Made by a program: the position numbers and the translations under genes. A DNA stretch of 64,000 nt from an uncultured Chiayiivirga sp. (GTDB lineage: Bacteria; Pseudomonadota; Gammaproteobacteria; Xanthomonadales; Xanthomonadaceae), in assembly GCA_934525595.1 (NCBI GenBank), contig CAKSZJ010000016.1, forward strand, positions 8,172 through 72,171. Direction: 5' to 3'. This document shows positions 16,764-64,000 of this stretch, one piece after another (the first letter of the stretch is position 1; each line of letters begins with the position of its first letter). The notes beneath the pieces are model-generated. The model did no database searches. It worked only from the letters and a program-made list of their open reading frames with translations, and was not told where the DNA came from.

Positions 16764-16982
16764 ATGTCGAAACTAGTGGAGCTGATGCGGGAGCTGGGCC
16801 GCAACGCAGCCCTCGCCCGGGATTACGAGGCCGATGCGGAGGCGGTGATGCGCAACGCGGGCCTTTCCGCAGAAGAATGTCGCGCGCTGCGGGAAAAGGA
16901 CTACGACGCGATCAAGCGACTGACCGGGCTGGTCGACGGCCAGTTCGCCGTCAATCACATCATCCGGGCTTACGACCAGTAG
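16764..16982 (+). CDS. Putative split-borosin precursor peptide (borosin-binding-domain type)
   Basis: A 72-residue cytoplasmic peptide with no signal sequence. Residues 1-55 are predicted helical: LGRNAALARDYEADAEAVMR and GLSAEECRALREKDYDAIK. This is the LigA-like helical fold used as the binding domain of split borosin precursors; from memory its pattern closely follows Shewanella SonA (opening MS.L, LG..A.L..DY, EAVMR..GL..E). Residues 57-72, ending HIIRAYDQ, are less constrained and form the candidate core in which backbone amides could be N-methylated. An AGGGGAAG ribosome-binding site precedes the ATG at 16764. The stop is 22 bases before the gene for a methyltransferase-bearing protein, the expected arrangement. 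The simple alternative, a protocatechuate dioxygenase small subunit, is unlikely because no LigB partner is present. Confidence 0.78.
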   Translation: MSKLVELMRELGRNAALARDYEADAEAVMRNAGLSAEECRALREKDYDAIKRLTGLVDGQFAVNHIIRAYDQ

Positions 16983-17004
16983 CCGACCGCTCGCCTGCAC
17001 GCGC

Positions 17005-19515
17005 ATGGCCAGATCATTCCCCATCCTGAGAACTCTGATTCTGGTGGCGTCATGCATGGTGTCGGGTGCCTGCGGATCTGCCGTGGACGCAGACGGTGCG
17101 GCCACCGATGCCGCGACCGACGGCAGTGCTCCTTCCGTGCTTTCCCTGACCCCGACCGACGGCATCGCTCGCCTCGATGAGGCCGATCCCGAAGGTGCCT
17201 ATACGCGGCTGCGCAATCTGGCCCTTTCCGGCGACCACGCCACCGCGCAGCGCGGACTGATCGAACTGCTGGCGCACGATGCCCTTCCCGCATCGCTGCG
17301 GATGCGCATCTACATCACCGCCATCAGCATCGCCACCAACTACGAAGACTGGCCGCAGGCGTTTTCCCTGCTCAACGAGGCCATGCCCCACCTGCCGTCC
17401 GCACCGGGCGAGGCCGCACGCCTGCTTGGCGCCGCCAGTCAGCTCTATTCCGCCGTCGGCGAAACCGAGCGCGCCCTCGACCTGGGCCTGCGTGCGGTCC
17501 AGGCGGCCGAAGCCGGGCAGGAGGATCTTCCAGCCTGTCACGCTGTCGCCGCGCTGGCCATTGCCTATGAGAACGGGGATGTCTGGGGAGCCGCGCTGCA
17601 ATGGCGCAAGCGCCAGGTCGAAGCCTGCGCCCGCGCTGGCGATGCGCTGTTTGCCGCCAACGGCAAGTATGGCGTCGGTACGGTGTCGATGGCGCAGGGG
17701 CAGTATCGCCAGGCATTGGAGTGGGGTGAGGAGGCGCTGGCCGATTACGAGGCCGACGCCTATGAAGCCGGTGCCAGCAACGCCAGACTCCTGATTGCCC
17801 TGACCCTGGTCGAACTGGGAGAGCAGTCGAAGCGCGCGGACGCGCTGCTGGCCGGCCTTGCCGCGCGCAATCGCACCCGCCCTTCGATGCTGGTGATGGT
17901 CGATGTCGAACAGGCCAGAGCAACCCTCGCCGAGTCGCGCGGCGATCTGGCAGCCAGCGTTGTGCATCTCAGGGAGGCATTGAGGCTGTCGAAGGAGGTT
18001 GACCGGAGCGCGCGTGCCCGGCAGCTGGCCTACCTGCAGATCCAGTTCGACACCCAGCTCAAGGAACAGCGGATTTCCCTGCTGGAAGCCGAGAAGGCAC
18101 TGGCCGAGGCGACCACCACGGCTGCCCACAGGCGCCAGCTGCTGCTGGCGACCGGCGTGGCTGGCCTCATCGTCTCGTCCACGCTTCTCCTTCTTCTCCT
18201 GCGCCGCACCCTGCGCGATCGCCGGCGCTATCGCTGGGAGGCCGAGCACGACGGACTCACCCGGCTCATCAACCAGCAGCACCTGCTCAAGGTCGGCGAT
18301 GCGGCGTTCTCGCGGGCTGCGAAGGCCGGACGGCCATTCAGCGCCATTGCGGTGGACATCGATCTTTTCAAGCACATCAACGATACCCACGGACACGCGG
18401 CGGGCGACGAGGCACTGCGCGCGATGGGTCACTGGATCCGTGACGTGGTGGGAGAACGGGGCATCGCCGCGCGGCGCGGCGGTGACGAGTTCATGATCCT
18501 GGTCGAGGACGATGTCATCCAGGCCAAGCGCCTGCTGCAGCGCCTGCGCGAGCGGATCGTTCCGGTGATCGTGCATGGCCGCACGCTGGCGTTCACCATC
18601 AGCGCCGGCATCTGTCAGGCCGACGCGCGCGTAGGCTCGATCGAGCAGCTTCTCCACAAGGCCGACAAGGCGCTGTATCGAGCCAAGCGGCAGGGCCGCG
18701 ACAGGCTCGCCTGCTGGAACGACGAGGTGCCGGATGATACGAATGCCGCTTCGACCGGCAGCCTCGTGGTGGTCGGGTGCGGCATCCAGTTCGGCCGTCA
18801 CGTCAGCGAACGCACGCTGTCGGAAATCCAGCAGGCGCAGGTGGTGTTCTGTCTGGCCGACCCCTTCGCGCTGGCGATGATCACGCGTCTGCGCCCCGAC
18901 GTCATCAACCTCGGGACGCACTACGCACCGGGCCGCGACCGGCGTGAGACCTACCGCGACATCGACGCGGCGATCATGCGCGAGGTGCGCGCCGGAAAAG
19001 CGGTCTGTGCGGTGTTCTATGGCCACCCCGGCGTCTTTGCCGACGTGCCGCACCAGGTGGTCCGCAAGGCGCGTGCCGAGGGCATGAGCGCGCGCATGGA
19101 GCCTGGCATCTCGGCCGAAGCCTGCCTGTATGCCGACCTGGGAATCGATCCCGGCCAGCGCGGCGTCCAGTCGCTGGAGGCCACGTACTTCCTCTGCTAT
19201 GACCGGCAGATCGACCCGCAGGGCCACGTGCTGCTCTGGCAGGTGGCGCTGGCGGGCGACTGGTCGTGCACCCGTCTGGAGGCCGATCGGGACGGGCTGC
19301 GCGCGCTGGTGGAAAAGCTCCTGCGCTGGTATCCGCCCGATCACGAGGTGATCCTTTACGAAGCCGCGCAGTTGCCGATCGACGACTTCCGCGCCGAGCA
19401 CCTGCGCCTTTGCGACCTGCCGGACGCGCAGTACCGGCAGATCACCACCCTGGTCATCCCGCCGCTGGAGTCCGCGCTGCGGCGCGATCCCGCCTGTGAA
19501 GCCGCAGCGAACTGA
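17005..19515 (+). CDS. Membrane TPR-GGDEF protein fused to a borosin-type alpha-N-methyltransferase domain
   Basis: An 836-residue protein. Residues 1-23 form an export signal ending VSGAC (possible, imperfect lipobox); about 60-365 are TPR-like helices, presumably periplasmic; 379-400 are a membrane helix; about 410-570 are a GGDEF domain with intact GGDEF (492-496) and KADKALYRAKRQGRD; about 585-825 are a tetrapyrrole-methylase-fold domain. The last carries VVVGCGIQFG (SAM loop), FYGHPGVFADVPH and MEPGISAEACLYADLGIDPG, which in my recollection are hallmarks of the borosin enzymes SonM and OphMA rather than of cobalamin-pathway methylases. Such enzymes methylate backbone amides of a peptide; the substrate is probably the 72-residue product encoded just upstream. 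Topology places both enzymatic domains in the cytoplasm. Fusion to a diguanylate cyclase is unusual; no frameshift or internal stop is seen at the junction (about 568-585), so the fusion is real in this sequence. Confidence 0.85.
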   Translation: MARSFPILRTLILVASCMVSGACGSAVDADGAATDAATDGSAPSVLSLTPTDGIARLDEADPEGAYTRLRNLALSGDHATAQRGLIELLAHDALPASLRMRIYITAISIATNYEDWPQAFSLLNEAMPHLPSAPGEAARLLGAASQLYSAVGETERALDLGLRAVQAAEAGQEDLPACHAVAALAIAYENGDVWGAALQWRKRQVEACARAGDALFAANGKYGVGTVSMAQGQYRQALEWGEEALADYEADAYEAGASNARLLIALTLVELGEQSKRADALLAGLAARNRTRPSMLVMVDVEQARATLAESRGDLAASVVHLREALRLSKEVDRSARARQLAYLQIQFDTQLKEQRISLLEAEKALAEATTTAAHRRQLLLATGVAGLIVSSTLLLLLLRRTLRDRRRYRWEAEHDGLTRLINQQHLLKVGDAAFSRAAKAGRPFSAIAVDIDLFKHINDTHGHAAGDEALRAMGHWIRDVVGERGIAARRGGDEFMILVEDDVIQAKRLLQRLRERIVPVIVHGRTLAFTISAGICQADARVGSIEQLLHKADKALYRAKRQGRDRLACWNDEVPDDTNAASTGSLVVVGCGIQFGRHVSERTLSEIQQAQVVFCLADPFALAMITRLRPDVINLGTHYAPGRDRRETYRDIDAAIMREVRAGKAVCAVFYGHPGVFADVPHQVVRKARAEGMSARMEPGISAEACLYADLGIDPGQRGVQSLEATYFLCYDRQIDPQGHVLLWQVALAGDWSCTRLEADRDGLRALVEKLLRWYPPDHEVILYEAAQLPIDDFRAEHLRLCDLPDAQYRQITTLVIPPLESALRRDPACEAAAN

Positions 19516-20350: not shown

Positions 20351-20462
20351 GGCGGGCAAAGCGTCACGGGGCACCTGATTGTCGTGCCGGAACGCCCGGA
20401 ATGCGACGCGGCGCGGTGACTTTGCCGGCAAAGGCGGCGATGATCCGCCCAGGGAGAATCCA

Positions 20463-20846
20463 ATGCCGCCGATGTACCCTCGCCCGTCCGAAGGTTCCGC
20501 GTCCCTGCGCTTGCGTCACGCCTGCGCGGTCGCCGCGGCGCTGCTGTCCGCTTCCTTTGCCACCCAGGCGCAGGCCAGCCGCAGCGAGTACCTGAGCTGG
20601 TTCGATACCGATGGCGACGGACGCGTCTCGCTGGCCGAGTATCAGGACTACCTGAGCCAGGGATTCCACGCCATGGACCGCAACGGCGACGGCGTGCTGT
20701 CGGCCAGTGAAATGCCCGCCGGCGTCCGCCTGCGCACCGCCACCACGCTCGAATCCCGCCACCGCGCCCTGACCCGCATGTTCGACCGGCTCGACCTCGA
20801 CAACGACGGCTACCTGGATGCCAACGAGCTGACCGCGGTGCCGTGA
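20463..20846 (+). CDS. Exported EF-hand calcium-binding protein
   Basis: A 127-residue protein with an N-terminal signal peptide (hydrophobic [14 protein letters not shown], cleavage near AQA-S) and three canonical EF-hand loops: [24 protein letters not shown] and [12 protein letters not shown]. Each has Asp at positions 1, 3 and 5 and Glu at position 12, so calcium binding is expected. It probably acts in the periplasm or outside; its partner is unknown. It is divergent from mutM and followed by xthA after 106 bases. Confidence 0.85.
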
Positions 20847-58673: not shown

Positions 58674-59124
58674 CGCGCCGCAGCGCGCCAGCATCAGCGC
58701 TGCGCGCGCGGTCCCCGGGCCGGACGGGCTGGTGCTGGAGGTGACGCAGCGCATCGAGCTGTCCCAGTCGATGCACGCCGCACTCGACCACGGCATCGCG
58801 CTGCGCCTGGTCTATCGCATCGATGCCTGCGGCCACGTGCGCCGGCGTGCGCTGTGGCTGCGCCACGCCCCGCTCAAGCGGCAATATGAGCTGCAGCGTG
58901 AAGGTGATGCCGAAGTTCGTGGCTTCGCCCGCCTGCCGCTGCTGGCCGCCGCGCTGGATCGGGTCCGCCTGCCGCTCGACCTTCCCGGCGACGCGCAGTG
59001 CGAAGGGCATGTGCAGGTTCGCCTGGATCCGGCCGCGCTGCCGACTCCGCTGCGCTTTCCCGCCTTCCTGGAGCCGGAGCAGTGGCGCCTGGCCTCCGCG
59101 CGGTTTTCCTGGGCCGCGCAATGA
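58594..59124 (+). CDS. DUF4390 lipoprotein
   Basis: About 176 residues from a GTG start, with a lipoprotein signal ([13 protein letters not shown], Cys about 24) and a DUF4390 domain (VPGPDGLVLEVTQRIELS). DUF4390 proteins are small periplasmic proteins of unknown function almost always encoded between rsmB and ntrY, as here. The start is uncertain (GTG at 58591 or 58594, inside the rsmB end). Its stop overlaps the ntrY start by four bases (ATGA), implying coupling to the sensor kinase. Confidence 0.8.
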   Translation: MTGSFTQSSPSRALAILLILALAGCGDAPQRASISAARAVPGPDGLVLEVTQRIELSQSMHAALDHGIALRLVYRIDACGHVRRRALWLRHAPLKRQYELQREGDAEVRGFARLPLLAAALDRVRLPLDLPGDAQCEGHVQVRLDPAALPTPLRFPAFLEPEQWRLASARFSWAAQ

Positions 59125-61250
59125 GCACCTTCCGCCGCGCCCGCGCCGTTCGCATCACCCTTGCCGTGCTGCTGCTCACCGCCCTGCTGGCCGGGCTTTA
59201 TCTGGTCGCCGGCGCCCAGGGTCTGGGGCCGCGCTATGCGCGCTGGTATCCGGCCGTGTTTGCCACCACGCTGGGCGCGCTTGCGCTGCTCTCGATCGCC
59301 ATTGCGCTGCGGCTCTGGCGCCTGCGCCGCCAGCTTGTGCGCGGCGAGCCCGGCGCTCGCCTGACGCGTCGCCTGCTGCTGCTGCTGGTGCTTCTGGCGC
59401 TGCCGCCGCTGGTGCTGGTCTACGGCTTCGGCGTGCGCTTCATCGGCGCGACGGTGGATTCCTGGCTTCCGGCGAACAACGCAGACGCGCTGTCCGACGC
59501 GCTGGCGCTCGGCCAGCGCTACCTGGACGAGCGCATCGCCGAAGCGCGCGCCGCCACCGAGCGCAGCGCCAGGGATCTCTCCATCCCCGGAGGCGACGGG
59601 CTGGACGCGGCGCTGGAAGACGCGCTCGACGCCAGCGGCGCGCGCCAGATGGCGGTGTTCGAACCGGACGGCCGCACGCGCGCGGTGGCCGCCGCCGATC
59701 CGGCCCTGCTGCTGCCCGAGCCGCCGCAGGACGAGGCGCGCCTGGCGCTGCGCAATCGCGCCCTGTACGCCGCCACCGAGCGCGACGGCGAGGGGCTGCG
59801 CATCCGCATCCTGGCCGCACTGCCGGGCGACCGCATCCTGCAGGCGCTGTACGAGCTGCCGCCCGAGGCCGCGGCGCAGGCGCTGCGGGTCGAATCCGCC
59901 GTGCACGCCGCTTCGCGCGCGCAGTTCCTGCGCGAATCGCTGAAGCTCGCCTTCATCCTGATCCTGAGTCTGGTGCTGCTGCTGTCCCTGTTCGCCACGG
60001 TGCTGGTCTCGTTCGGACTGGCGCGGCGTCTGGTGGCGCCGATCGCGCGCCTCTCCACCGCCACGCGGCGCATCGCCGAAGGCCGCTTCGATGCCCAGCT
60101 TCCCGAGGGAGAGGACGACGAACTCGGCTTCCTGGTGCAGTCGTTCAACCGCATGACCCGCGAACTGGAGCTGTCCCGCGCCCGCGAGCGCGCGAGCGCC
60201 GAGGACAACGAGCGCCAGCGCGCCTTTCTGGAAACCGTGCTGGCCCACCTGACCTCCGGCGTACTGGTGGTGGATGCCGATCTCCAGCTGCGCAGCATGA
60301 ACGCCACGGCTCGCCAGATGCTCGGATTGGCGCCCGACCAGACTACGGTCTGGCCGCTGGCTGAACTGCGCCGCATTGCGCCGCAGGCGGCGGGGCTGGT
60401 CGGCACGCTGCTCAAGCGCCTTCGCGACGGCACGCGCGAGTGGCGCGAGGAAGTGACCCTCGATGGCAGTGGCGCCACGCCACGGGTCCTGCTCCTGCGC
60501 GGTGCGCGTCTTCCCGGCGAGGGCGCGGTGGCGGTGTTCGACGACGCCACCGTCATCGAGCGCGCCCAGCGCGATGCCGCCTGGGCCGAGGTGGCGCGCC
60601 GTCTGGCGCACGAGATCAAGAACCCGCTGACCCCGATCCAGCTGGCGGCCGAGCGCCTGCGGCGCCGCGTGCTGCCCAAGCTGGATGAAGACGACGCCCA
60701 GGTGCTCGATCGCGCCACCCACACCATCGTGGCCCAGGTGGATGCGCTCAAGGCCATGGTCAACAGCTTCGGCGACTATGCCCGCCCCCCGAGCCTCGTG
60801 CTGGCGCAGCTCGATCTCAATCGTCTGGTTGGCGAAGTGCTGGATCTCTACGAACACGACCAGCGACTGGGGCTGGTCCGCGCCCTCGCAGCGGATCTTC
60901 CCGCCGTGCAGGCCGATGCCGGGCGCATCCGCCAGGTGCTGCACAACCTCGTCAAGAACGCGATCGAGGCCTGCGCCGAGCGCAGCAGACCCTGGATCGA
61001 AGTGGCGACGAGGCGGGTGGAAGAGGGCGGGCGCAGCTTCGTCGAGCTGAGCGTGGCCGATGACGGCCCCGGTCTGCCGGAAGGCTTCGACCTGCACTGG
61101 TTCGAGCCTTACCGCAGCACCAAGCCGCGGGGTACCGGGCTCGGTCTCGCAATCGTGGCGCGCATCGCCCAGGAGCACGGCGCGCGTTTCGAAGCGCGCC
61201 GCCGCGCCGAGGGCGGCGCCATGTTCATCCTGAGGCTGCCGACGGGCTGA
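59121..61250 (+). CDS. NtrY-type sensor histidine kinase
   Basis: A 709-residue membrane kinase. It has two N-terminal helices, a third at about 85-110, a periplasmic sensor region (about 110-270), a fourth helix (about 275-300), HAMP (PIARLSTATRRIAEGRFD), PAS-like domain, the phosphorylation box RLAHEIKNPLTPIQLAAERL (His about 496) and the ATPase domain (NLVKNAIEAC, DDGPGLP, GTGLGLAIV). This is the NtrY architecture, linked to nitrogen or envelope/redox regulation. The NtrX response regulator normally follows directly but is absent: the next gene is a GAF-domain gene 265 bases away. Confidence 0.9.
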   Translation: MSTFRRARAVRITLAVLLLTALLAGLYLVAGAQGLGPRYARWYPAVFATTLGALALLSIAIALRLWRLRRQLVRGEPGARLTRRLLLLLVLLALPPLVLVYGFGVRFIGATVDSWLPANNADALSDALALGQRYLDERIAEARAATERSARDLSIPGGDGLDAALEDALDASGARQMAVFEPDGRTRAVAAADPALLLPEPPQDEARLALRNRALYAATERDGEGLRIRILAALPGDRILQALYELPPEAAAQALRVESAVHAASRAQFLRESLKLAFILILSLVLLLSLFATVLVSFGLARRLVAPIARLSTATRRIAEGRFDAQLPEGEDDELGFLVQSFNRMTRELELSRARERASAEDNERQRAFLETVLAHLTSGVLVVDADLQLRSMNATARQMLGLAPDQTTVWPLAELRRIAPQAAGLVGTLLKRLRDGTREWREEVTLDGSGATPRVLLLRGARLPGEGAVAVFDDATVIERAQRDAAWAEVARRLAHEIKNPLTPIQLAAERLRRRVLPKLDEDDAQVLDRATHTIVAQVDALKAMVNSFGDYARPPSLVLAQLDLNRLVGEVLDLYEHDQRLGLVRALAADLPAVQADAGRIRQVLHNLVKNAIEACAERSRPWIEVATRRVEEGGRSFVELSVADDGPGLPEGFDLHWFEPYRSTKPRGTGLGLAIVARIAQEHGARFEARRRAEGGAMFILRLPTG

Positions 61251-61515
61251 AGCGTGAAGCGAAGTCGCGTCGTGGTTGCGGACCAAACTTGTTTCCGGGG
61301 GATCGGGATGGGCCGGCGCTTGTTCGTGACTGGTGCGCCACTGGAATTGGACGGGCGTTGTCGTCGCTTCGGGGTCCGGAAGCATTTCGCCTGCCGATCG
61401 GCTTTTGCAGCGCAAAATACAGCCTTCCGCGGACAGCGGTAGGCTTGTGGGTACCGCGACGCGTGCCCCGGCACGAATATTCTCCGGTGCGGAACGCAAA
61501 CGAGGAATCAGTGCA

Positions 61516-62043
61516 ATGCGCTGTCCCGCGATTTCTCCCGACGAGCCCGAGCGCCTGCGCGCCTTGTCCGATTATGGCCTGGACGACGAACAGCTCGTCC
61601 CCAGCCTGGAGCCGGTGGTGCACATCGCCGCGCGCATGCTGGGCATGCCCGTGGCCGCAGTGAACATGATCGGCAGCGATCACGTCTTTTTCGCCGCCAG
61701 TGTCGGCGTGGGGGAGGTGGACATGAGCCGCGACGTGTCTTTCTGCGCCCATGCCATCAACCAGCGCGAGGTCATGGTGGTGTTCGACGCGCGCGAAGAC
61801 GAGCGCTTCCACGACAATCCACTCGTAGAAGGGCCCAACGGCATACGGTTTTATGCCGGCGTTCCGCTGGTGACCCCGGAAGGCCACGCCATGGGCGCGC
61901 TGTGCGTGATCGACAGCGTGCCGCGTCCGGATTTCTCCGAGGACGATCGCAATCGCCTGCTGGAACTGGCGAAAATGACGTCCGACCGGCTGGAGCTTCG
62001 CCGCATCGCCACCGCCGCGCAGCGCAGCCGCCCCAGTTTCTAG
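61516..62043 (+). CDS. GAF-domain protein, 5-prime part of an interrupted GAF-PAS-GGDEF-EAL gene
   Basis: 175 codons forming one GAF domain: LSDYGLDDEQLVPSLEPVVH, DVSFCAHAINQREVMVVFDA, GIRFYAGVPLVTPEGHAMGALCV. It ends at TAG (62041-62043). The same frame continues for nine codons before a GTG and the next piece, reading EHAGSSSTPVVWFDGARRI, the normal transition from a GAF into a PAS domain. The stop probably arose from CAG (Gln). As a separate product this would be a stand-alone GAF protein. Confidence 0.7.
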   Translation: MRCPAISPDEPERLRALSDYGLDDEQLVPSLEPVVHIAARMLGMPVAAVNMIGSDHVFFAASVGVGEVDMSRDVSFCAHAINQREVMVVFDAREDERFHDNPLVEGPNGIRFYAGVPLVTPEGHAMGALCVIDSVPRPDFSEDDRNRLLELAKMTSDRLELRRIATAAQRSRPSF

Positions 62044-62070
62044 GAACATGCCGGCTCGTCCTCCACGCCC

Positions 62071-63693
62071 GTGGTGTGGTTCGATGGCGCGCGCCGCATC
62101 GTGGCCTGGAACGAGGCCGCCTCCTCCGCGCCGGGCTACGAGAATCAGGAAGGCATCGGAAAACCCATCGACCTGCTGCTCCCTGTCCGCCGCCGCGCGG
62201 ATTTCGCTGCGGTGGTGGCACGGGCGCTGGAACAGGGGTCGCTAGACGGCATCAACGTTCCCTACGAGCTGGATGCACTGCACAAGAACGGCAGCGAAAC
62301 CCGCTTCGGATTCGCCATGTTCTCGTGGAAGGAACCAAAAGGGATTCGCTTCGAAGTGGTGCTCAAGGACATCAGCGTTTCCCGACGCGAAGAGCTGGAG
62401 CTGCGTCGTCAGGTCCATACCGACGCGCTGACGGGGCTGGCCAACCGCGCCTGTTTCTACCATGAGGTCGAGCATGCACTGCGAGATGGCAAGCCTGCCG
62501 CGGTCATGATGATCGACCTGGATGGATTCAAGGATGTCAACGACACCTTTGGCCATCTGCTGGGCGATGTGCTGCAGCAGCAGACGGCACAGCGCCTGCG
62601 CAGTGCCTTCGGCGGTGAGTCGCTCGTGGCGCGCCTGGGAGGAGATGAGTTCGCCGTGCTGCTGCCCGGAATGGAGGATGCAGAAACCGTGATGCGGCTG
62701 GCGAAGGATGCCTGCAGCGAGCTGGCCCGGCCGATCCGCGTGGATGACCAGCAGATGCGCGTGGACGTCAGCTGCGGCGTGGCGCTCGCACCGGAACAGG
62801 CGCAGGAAGCGCTGGAGCTTGCGGGGGCCGCGGACCTTGCGCTGTGCCATGCGAAGGCCAATGGGCGTGGCCGTTGCATGCTGTTCGCACCCGAGCTGCG
62901 CATGGCCGCGGTGGCGCGAAGGCTTTACGGCATGGAGCTGCATCGCGCAGTGGACGAAGGTGAATTCCTGCTGTTCTACCAGCCGCAGGTGCGCCTGAGC
63001 GATGGCATGCTGACCGGTTGCGAGGCTCTATTGCGCTGGAATCATCCCGAGCGCGGGCTGCTGTCGCCCGCGGCATTCCTTCCGGCGCTGGAGGGCAGTC
63101 CGCTGGCGCTTGCCGTCGGTTCCTTCGTGCTGGACGAGGCCTGCGCCCAGGCCGCTTACTGGCGACGCCACGGCGCATATGACCTGCGCATGGGCGTCAA
63201 TCTGTTCGGAGCGCAGTTCCATGCCGGAAACCTGGTGTCGGAAGTGATGGCCACGCTGGCGCGTCACGGCTTGCCGGAAGAGGCGTTGGAGCTGGAGGTT
63301 ACCGAGAACATCGTGCTCGACTGCGATGAAGTCGCCCTGGTCGCACTGGAAAAGCTGCATGCGAAGGGCGTAAGCATCGCCTTCGACGACTTCGGCACCG
63401 GCTATGCGTCCCTGAGCCTGCTCAAGCGCTATCCGCTGAACCGGATCAAGATCGACAAGAACTTCGTCCAGGGCATGCTGGAGTCGCCGCGTGACCTGTC
63501 GCTTACCCGCGCCATTCTCGATATCGCGCGTTCCTTCAACCTGCAGACCATCGCAGAGGGCGTGGAAACGCACGAGCAATGGGAGCATCTGCGCAACGAG
63601 GGATGCCCGGAAGGGCGGGGATACCTGTTCGGAAAGCCGATGCCGGCAGGCGTCTTCGCGCAGCGCTTCAATCTGGGGCAGATGGCTGCCTGA
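62071..63693 (+). CDS. PAS-GGDEF-EAL protein, 3-prime part of the interrupted gene
   Basis: 540 residues from GTG 62071, in frame with the GAF piece before it. PAS (about 1-105, ending LKDISVSRREELE), GGDEF domain with intact GGDEF (190-194) and EAL domain with CEALLRW (about 317-323), NLFGAQFHAG, EVTENIVLD, DDFGTGYASLSLLK and AEGVETHEQ. Both catalytic motifs are complete, so it could make or degrade c-di-GMP. No ribosome-binding site is evident before the GTG. It is best read as the distal part of one GAF-PAS-GGDEF-EAL protein cut by a nonsense change, or as an independently translated protein; the sequence cannot decide. Confidence 0.75.
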   Translation: MVWFDGARRIVAWNEAASSAPGYENQEGIGKPIDLLLPVRRRADFAAVVARALEQGSLDGINVPYELDALHKNGSETRFGFAMFSWKEPKGIRFEVVLKDISVSRREELELRRQVHTDALTGLANRACFYHEVEHALRDGKPAAVMMIDLDGFKDVNDTFGHLLGDVLQQQTAQRLRSAFGGESLVARLGGDEFAVLLPGMEDAETVMRLAKDACSELARPIRVDDQQMRVDVSCGVALAPEQAQEALELAGAADLALCHAKANGRGRCMLFAPELRMAAVARRLYGMELHRAVDEGEFLLFYQPQVRLSDGMLTGCEALLRWNHPERGLLSPAAFLPALEGSPLALAVGSFVLDEACAQAAYWRRHGAYDLRMGVNLFGAQFHAGNLVSEVMATLARHGLPEEALELEVTENIVLDCDEVALVALEKLHAKGVSIAFDDFGTGYASLSLLKRYPLNRIKIDKNFVQGMLESPRDLSLTRAILDIARSFNLQTIAEGVETHEQWEHLRNEGCPEGRGYLFGKPMPAGVFAQRFNLGQMAA

Positions 63694-63923: not shown

Positions 63924-64000
63924 TGGCGCGCCTGGAGGGATTCGAACCCCCGACCAATGGCTTCGGAAGCCACTACTCTATCCGGCTGAGCTACAGGCGC
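63924..64000 (-). tRNA. tRNA-Arg(CCG)
   Basis: A complete cloverleaf on the minus strand: acceptor GCGCCTG/CAGGCGC, D-arm TAGCTCAGCCGGATAGAG, anticodon stem-loop GTGGC-TTCCGAA-GCCAT with anticodon CCG, T-loop TTCGAAT, discriminator G and encoded CCA at 63924-63926. It reads CGG, one of the arginine codons expected to be common in this GC-rich genome. Confidence 0.95.

Follow-up and report, generated by a model that had tools for sequence, protein, structure and literature searches.

The window analyzed here is a 64,000-nucleotide stretch of contig CAKSZJ010000016.1 from an uncultured Chiayiivirga sp. It contains two adjacent open reading frames (ORFs) on the plus strand, separated by an intergenic gap of 22 bases (16983-17004), which encode a peptide of 72 amino acids (aa) and a protein of 836 aa. 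We consider it almost certain that this locus belongs to the borosins, in which a methyltransferase acts on the backbone of a precursor peptide. The methyltransferase domain lies here at the C terminus of a predicted transmembrane protein that also carries a tetratricopeptide repeat (TPR)-like region and a GGDEF (diguanylate cyclase) domain. The features of the locus are as follows:

16764..16982, plus strand: precursor gene, an ORF of 72 aa
16764..16982, plus strand: precursor domains, with a predicted borosin-binding domain of five helices at residues ~1-55, then a linker, and a C-terminal core at residues ~61-72 (from homology and the AlphaFold2 model)
17005..19515, plus strand: fusion gene, 836 aa, in the order signal peptide, TPR-like region, transmembrane helix, GGDEF domain, and alpha-N-methyltransferase domain
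17005..17079, plus strand: predicted signal peptide, residues ~1-25, hydrophobic from residue 5 (from hydropathy and similar N termini in several relatives)
17188..17937, plus strand: TPR-like helical repeats, residues ~62-311, predicted to be periplasmic (paired helices in the AlphaFold2 model)
18139..18201, plus strand: predicted transmembrane helix, residues ~379-399, with a hydropathy maximum of 2.27 and an arginine-rich stretch after it (inside)
18241..18705, plus strand: GGDEF (diguanylate cyclase) domain, residues 413-567, Pfam PF00990 with an E value of 4.2e-34
18760..19476, plus strand: borosin alpha-N-methyltransferase domain, residues 586-824, from the phmmer match to SonM

An initial annotation of this DNA had interpreted the two genes as a split borosin pair. 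The motifs that it listed were all found in the translations, namely, LGRNAALARDYEA, EAVMR, and GLSAEE in the 72-aa peptide and GHPGVFA, MEPGISAEACL, and DLGIDPG in the final 250 residues of the 836-aa protein, and the start of the second ORF 22 bases past the first was verified. The pairing itself was borne out by phmmer searches, in which the methyltransferase domain matched SonM with an E value of 1.9e-72 and OphMA with 8e-42, and the peptide matched SonA with 2e-6. However, the description was incomplete, since the enzyme makes up only one part of a membrane-spanning TPR-GGDEF protein; residues 1-580, which that annotation had not covered, comprise the signal peptide, the TPR-like region, the transmembrane helix, and the GGDEF domain.

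Judged by its sequence, the window precursor is a SonA-like peptide that is encoded separately, adjacent to its enzyme, and that possesses a helical borosin-binding domain. The AlphaFold2 model, built with 34 sequences, contains helices at residues 3-13, 15-23, 25-32, 36-43, and 47-54, followed by a tail of low confidence, and the binding domain of SonA is a five-helix bundle formed by residues 1-53 (PMC8429565). In a Foldseek search with the precursor model, SonA chains accounted for 29 of the 40 listed matches, the best with a root mean square deviation (rmsd) of ~1 Å and a probability of 1.00, with E values of at least 0.1 throughout. The tail of the relatives mostly follows the frame A-x-N-x-x-[IV]-x-A-Y-[DE], although exceptions occur and the inner residues are variable, and a subgroup of four loci has a tail with an extra acidic end. 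The methyl groups of SonA are located on Leu63 and Ile65 (PMC11285071), and the likely methylation targets in the window precursor fall within residues 63-68.

The Pfam labels would permit a different assignment, namely, that of an ordinary tetrapyrrole methylase next to an unrelated LigA-like subunit: TP_methylase was recognized at residues 587-788 of the large protein (E value of 1.4e-17), and LigA matched the 72-aa peptide with 1.5e-4, which did not reach the cut-off of that model. We rejected this candidate and give it virtually no credence, since borosin enzymes match the domain far better and the borosin active-site residues are kept; SonA itself is also named LigA. When the methyltransferase domain alone was compared with NCBIfam, the precorrin, siroheme, and uroporphyrinogen models gave E values of 0.005 to 0.1 and YabN gave 1e-8, all far short of their cut-offs. 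The best matches are thus borosin methyltransferases and not the cobalamin or siroheme methylases that the initial annotation had named as a competing assignment. The active-site residues, whose loss it had also considered, are present in the alignment with SonM: Y58, R67, Y71, and Y93 of SonM, the roles of which are described in PMC8429565, correspond to Y640, R646, Y650, and Y672 in the window protein. Equivalents of SonM Y58, R67, Y71, E146, W166, and Q167 were kept in all 120 homologues, that of Y93 in 119, and that of F99 in 115. This set combines the window protein with 119 of the 120 homologues listed, out of 339 found in a protein search whose candidates were restricted to 0.55 to 1.75 times the query length, so that free methyltransferases were outside its reach. 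SonM chains were also the best Foldseek matches of the whole fusion model (E value of 3.9e-20). Its homology makes it probable that the fusion enzyme methylates the backbone of its small partner peptide.

The remainder of the fusion protein has the layout of a membrane-bound sensor. An N-terminal hydrophobic stretch and one transmembrane segment followed by arginines predict that the TPR part is periplasmic and that both catalytic domains are cytoplasmic. An alternative database gene call gives the fusion 819 aa, beginning at residue 18. In the AlphaFold2 model, paired helices span residues 62-311 and a long helix extends to residue 414, followed by the GGDEF and methyltransferase domains. TPR_12 was recognized in 48 of 57 aligned homologues and matched the window protein weakly (7.8e-4, below its cut-off); GGDEF and TP_methylase were both found by Pfam in all 57. 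The GGDEF domain of the window protein is predicted to be a diguanylate cyclase, with the intact motif at residues 492-496. Among the 120 aligned fused homologues, the cyclase motif reads GGDEF in 117 and GGEEF in the other 3, and all 120 keep the metal-binding aspartate D451; D451, N459, and K561 are invariant across the 57. The RxxD inhibitory site is absent from the window GGDEF domain and was seen in 1 of the 120. Its near absence from the fused proteins, together with a degenerate GGDEF domain in the unfused locus L073, would agree with a scaffold, in which the GGDEF and TPR parts serve solely as a membrane anchor for the methyltransferase and do not signal. We regard this as very improbable, given the motif in 120 of 120 homologues and the three invariant residues.

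Including the window, 27 fused loci were available (window, L001-L010, and L054-L069), and every one of them has a precursor gene upstream of the fusion. A match at an E value of 1e-3 was observed in 129 of 297 genomes of one family, many of these matches being weak; judged by identity and frame length, the system appears to be fused in 21 of the 297. At the level of the phylum, 15 of 398 genomes gave a match at 1e-20, and by the same two measures only G002, which was known before, looks fused. We rejected the idea that the fusion is an assembly artifact, since the 27 fused loci form one clade and the protein search gave full-length fusions. Long open frames in L039 and L042 were considered as further fusions and dismissed, since their upstream parts look like spurious frames. 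The contig of L003 is titled as a metagenome-assembled genome of Sphingomonadales, and its borosin genes group with Luteimonas-like ones in both of the trees described below; the contig is possibly misbinned or the genes transferred.

More flanking DNA was available for ten fused loci (window and L001-L009). The fusion was found in all ten, and the precursor was found in seven by the gene caller and in all ten by profile. Beyond these two genes, none was common to more than three loci: an exodeoxyribonuclease-like gene (named by eye) is shared by the window, L001, and L009, five genes occur in the window and L001 but in no other locus, and a further three are each common to two other loci.

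Where the methyltransferase is not fused, its gene nearly always has a separate sensor gene for a neighbor. This linkage was counted in 110 unfused loci, all from Pseudomonadota (L070-L139 and L143-L182; 36 of the 40 loci in the latter range belong to the same genus as G657, a genome with a close relative of SonM). The loci were taken with the best scores first and include 61 of the 88 unfused matches at E <1e-40 in the family sample, L072, all 16 unfused rows of the phylum sample (three of which overlap other lists), and 37 of the 49 rows of another search; the linkage count keeps all 110. A sensor gene was observed alongside, on the same strand, in 107 of them, encoding TPR and GGDEF domains in 103 cases, GGDEF only in 1 (L173, where TPR was not recognized), and a TPR-hybrid histidine kinase in 3. 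The TPR-GGDEF gene is downstream, on the same strand, and within 2 kb in 102 loci, being the nearest gene in 99 and the second nearest in L083, L086, and L091. It is upstream, again on the same strand, in L073, and in L159 the GGDEF part of the sensor is split over two frames. The three exceptions to the linkage are L074 (a different protein of 1174 aa), L095 (a contig of 3.8 kb), and L139 (sensor on the other strand).

Sorted by distance from the methyltransferase gene, 103 GGDEF domains lie 2-3 kb downstream, 11 lie 3-6 kb downstream, and 12 lie in 570 kb upstream; the genome background is 344 GGDEF domains in ~48 Mb (13 of these genomes), or ~0.007 per kb. The motif is GGEEF in 100 of 105 GGDEF genes nearest the unfused methyltransferases, and RxxD is present in 82 of the 103 with a readable motif; both counts are based on the closest GGDEF gene, and in four loci (L083, L086, L091, and L139) this gene differs from the downstream partner. 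With a profile built on the fused clade and at a lax E value of up to 0.1, a precursor-like ORF was detected in 57 of the 110 loci (21 of the 70 in the first set and 36 of the 40 in the second). The sensors that replace TPR-GGDEF proteins in L176 (L176:6125-9016), L178 (L178:1251-4499), and L179 (L179:6071-9328) are TPR proteins with HisKA, HATPase_c, and two receiver domains, and two of the three also have Hpt. The sensor half thus remains constant while the output half is exchanged between GGDEF and histidine kinase, which is receptor-like and provides the strongest argument for signaling. That methyltransferase and sensor are functionally linked appears highly likely to us.

Two types of unusual arrangement were seen among the unfused loci. 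Two successive TPR-GGDEF genes follow one methyltransferase gene in L082, L103, L117, and L122, and L103 also has two precursor-like ORFs. The 1174-aa protein of L074 (L074:1840-5364, minus strand) has a borosin-like methyltransferase near its N terminus, a long, repetitive-looking region, a hydrophobic segment, and an acidic tail, and lies on a very long tree branch.

The linkage would also be compatible with control of the methyltransferase by the sensor. Here, the TPR part would sense an outside cue unrelated to the peptide, the outputs would be cyclic di-GMP (c-di-GMP) and methylation, and the peptide would act elsewhere as a natural product or effector. Within the fusion, the methyltransferase does occupy the place of an output domain, C-terminal to GGDEF, and SonM alternates between open and closed states (PMC8429565) and could therefore be gated. 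However, the 110 unfused loci encode the methyltransferase as a protein of its own, so that direct transmembrane gating is not a general feature, and the histidine kinase versions of the sensor would also need to gate it. We judge this explanation to be rather unlikely.

The phylogenies of the two partners were compared. In the methyltransferase tree (137 rows), the 27 fused sequences form one clade (support of 100/96), and its sister is L073 (100/99), whose long branch calls for caution. The sensor tree (133 rows) was built by a quick method without L074, L095, L139, and L173, and its groups were assigned from the methyltransferase tree. It showed the same four clades, each with one change, namely, the fused (27 rows; support of 99), SonA-like (32 rows; 93), acid-tail (70 rows; 98), and histidine kinase (3 rows; 99) clades. 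A fused system coexists with an unfused one in each of the genomes G002, G005, and G007, whereas G698, G702, and G722 carry one of each of two unfused classes; in such two-system genomes, the methyltransferase and sensor partners sort by system and not by genome.

L073 also bears on the origin of the fusion. Its three genes are ordered precursor, TPR-GGDEF, and methyltransferase, and the frames of the last two overlap. This is the order within the fusion, whereas the usual unfused order is methyltransferase, precursor, and sensor. As the simplest explanation, we infer that the fusion arose through a merger of the final two genes (sensor and methyltransferase) of an L073-like locus, and L073 possibly shows the arrangement that preceded it. 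The TPR-GGDEF protein of L073 (L073:6848-8701, minus strand), encoded between the precursor and the unfused methyltransferase, has the degenerate motif GAAEF.

The initial annotation had described the locus as minimal, with no transporter or protease beside it. This agrees with the ten flanked fused loci, which have no transporter, exporter, immunity, or protease gene in common. A pepsin-like aspartic protease gene is found near the methyltransferase gene in 16 of the 110 unfused loci (for example, L171:2687-4261, L170:2898-4445, and L085:6578-8077). A search of 30 genomes with the Pfam model revealed a pepsin-like protease in 3, in each case near a borosin gene and with no other copy. Shewasin A, a pepsin-like protease, reportedly cuts a borosin precursor. 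The fused loci yielded no pepsin-like protease gene within the available flanks, which extend usefully over several kilobases in the window and L001-L009; the fused systems would thus use a protease from elsewhere, or none.

The absence of a shared exporter or immunity gene from these ten loci is also relevant to a further alternative, in which the bacterium would secrete the peptide as an antimicrobial or metal-binding product, with the sensor gene acting only as a neighborhood regulator that times peptide production. Some fungal borosins are secreted natural products, and biosynthetic clusters often hold regulators. The partner is nevertheless almost always one type of sensor, physically fused in one clade, and together with the missing exporter and immunity genes this makes a secreted product an improbable explanation in our view.

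The explanation that we favor, with somewhat better than even confidence in the proposed mechanism as a whole, is a split borosin system in which the methyltransferase is the C-terminal domain of a transmembrane diguanylate cyclase receptor. By analogy with the homologous SonM and SonA, the precursor would use its helical binding domain to dock on the methyltransferase domain, and the backbone of the C-terminal core would be N-methylated in the cytoplasm. A protease encoded outside the locus would free the core. The receptor would then read the methylated peptide or the methylation state, most likely through binding to the periplasmic TPR part after export. The receptor dimer would in turn shift the activity of the GGDEF domain, predicted from its intact motif, and hence the level of c-di-GMP. 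GGDEF enzymes work as dimers. SonM works as a dimer as well (PMC8429565), and with both catalytic parts expected to be dimeric, the fusion would unite them in one unit. The fused form would have derived from a module with separate genes for the methyltransferase, the precursor, and a TPR sensor, the output domain of which is usually GGEEF, and a hybrid histidine kinase in three loci. For the peptide being the ligand of the sensor, we see slightly less than an even chance.

Several points weigh against the explanation that we favor. The TPR domain could respond to a cue different from the peptide, and as the fused loci have no linked transporter or protease, export and maturation are assumed. 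The agreement of the two trees can come from common descent alone, and the degenerate motif of L073 indicates that such systems can at times do without cyclase activity. At 676 aa, the fused frame of L062 is comparatively short; it begins more than 500 bases past the precursor, and its sensor part is odd and lies on a long branch. The AlphaFold2 fusion model has uncertain confidence in its methyltransferase part (ten-residue means of 39 to 89 in the predicted local distance difference test; whole-model predicted template modeling score of 0.45) and deviates from SonM with an rmsd of ~15 Å across the whole alignment; this uncertainty is too large for domain packing to be judged from the model. 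The survey covers Pseudomonadota, and the validated split borosin of Streptomyces (PMC8429565) lies outside it.

As for other features of the window, a scan for promoters and terminators gave one weak promoter-like match on the opposite strand and no terminator. The sole Rfam match in the window is a tRNA gene at its edge (63927-64000, minus strand), and a search of plasmid DNA gave only short matches, which were confined to the GGDEF part. A second c-di-GMP locus lies at 58998-63693, where a run of genes encodes a histidine kinase, a GAF protein, and a PAS-GGDEF-EAL protein. A small EF-hand protein is encoded at 20379-20846, flanked by mutM-like and exodeoxyribonuclease-like genes (neighbors named by eye).

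Among known systems, the window locus resembles the type IV split borosin SonM/SonA of Shewanella oneidensis (PMC8429565), which also has a separate precursor of ~70 aa with a five-helix binding domain. The window methyltransferase is 49% identical to SonM over 247 aligned columns and has the same catalytic residues. It differs in that SonM is a free enzyme of 263 aa, whereas the window enzyme is the C-terminal domain of an 836-aa TPR-transmembrane-GGDEF protein, and the core sequence of the window precursor differs from that of SonA. Because the methyltransferase is not free-standing, we have not filed the window locus as type IV proper. The words GGDEF, diguanylate, and tetratricopeptide are absent from the main text of PMC8429565. 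A GGDEF domain is named in the legend of Figure 1, a drawing of borosin types, in PMC11395268, and class 3 in the legend, with the methyltransferase on one protein and both the binding domain and the core on another, matches the window locus. A GGDEF-bearing borosin therefore appears to be classified already and, compared by the legend only, appears to be the nearest published architecture. PMC11395268 was the only text on an alpha-N-methyltransferase with GGDEF found in a literature search that covered few subscription papers. No text joining borosins with c-di-GMP or tetratricopeptide was found in that search.

The fungal fused borosins of types I to III, such as OphMA, have a homologous methyltransferase, but there the core is fused to the enzyme, whereas here the core has a gene of its own and the enzyme is fused to a signaling protein. 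In Agr-type peptide signaling loci and those of the RRNPP TPR receptors, a peptide gene, a modifying enzyme, and a receptor occur together, and TPR receptors can bind peptides. The window module is similar in that a small peptide, a modifying enzyme, and a putative receptor are encoded together. We know of no backbone N-methylation in Agr or RRNPP systems. RRNPP receptors are cytoplasmic, whereas the TPR domain of the window protein is predicted to be periplasmic, and the likeness drawn here is one of architecture.

The linkage of the methyltransferase with TPR sensors suggests that these borosin peptides serve in cell signaling. As a generalization that we hold tentatively and with some doubt, the split borosins of Pseudomonadota may be signaling peptides, for which the methyltransferase, the precursor, and a periplasmic TPR receptor with a cyclase or hybrid histidine kinase output would form one module; the protein of the fused clade would both make the N-methylated signal and answer it via c-di-GMP. 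As of 2021, no split borosin pathway had yet been tied to a final natural product (PMC8429565), so that the purpose of split borosins was open at that date. The near-constant presence of a sensor partner (107 of 110 loci) offers a concrete and testable purpose, namely, peptide control of c-di-GMP or of a phosphorelay, and the fusion would represent a natural single-chain link between an enzyme for ribosomally synthesized and posttranslationally modified peptides and a second-messenger enzyme.

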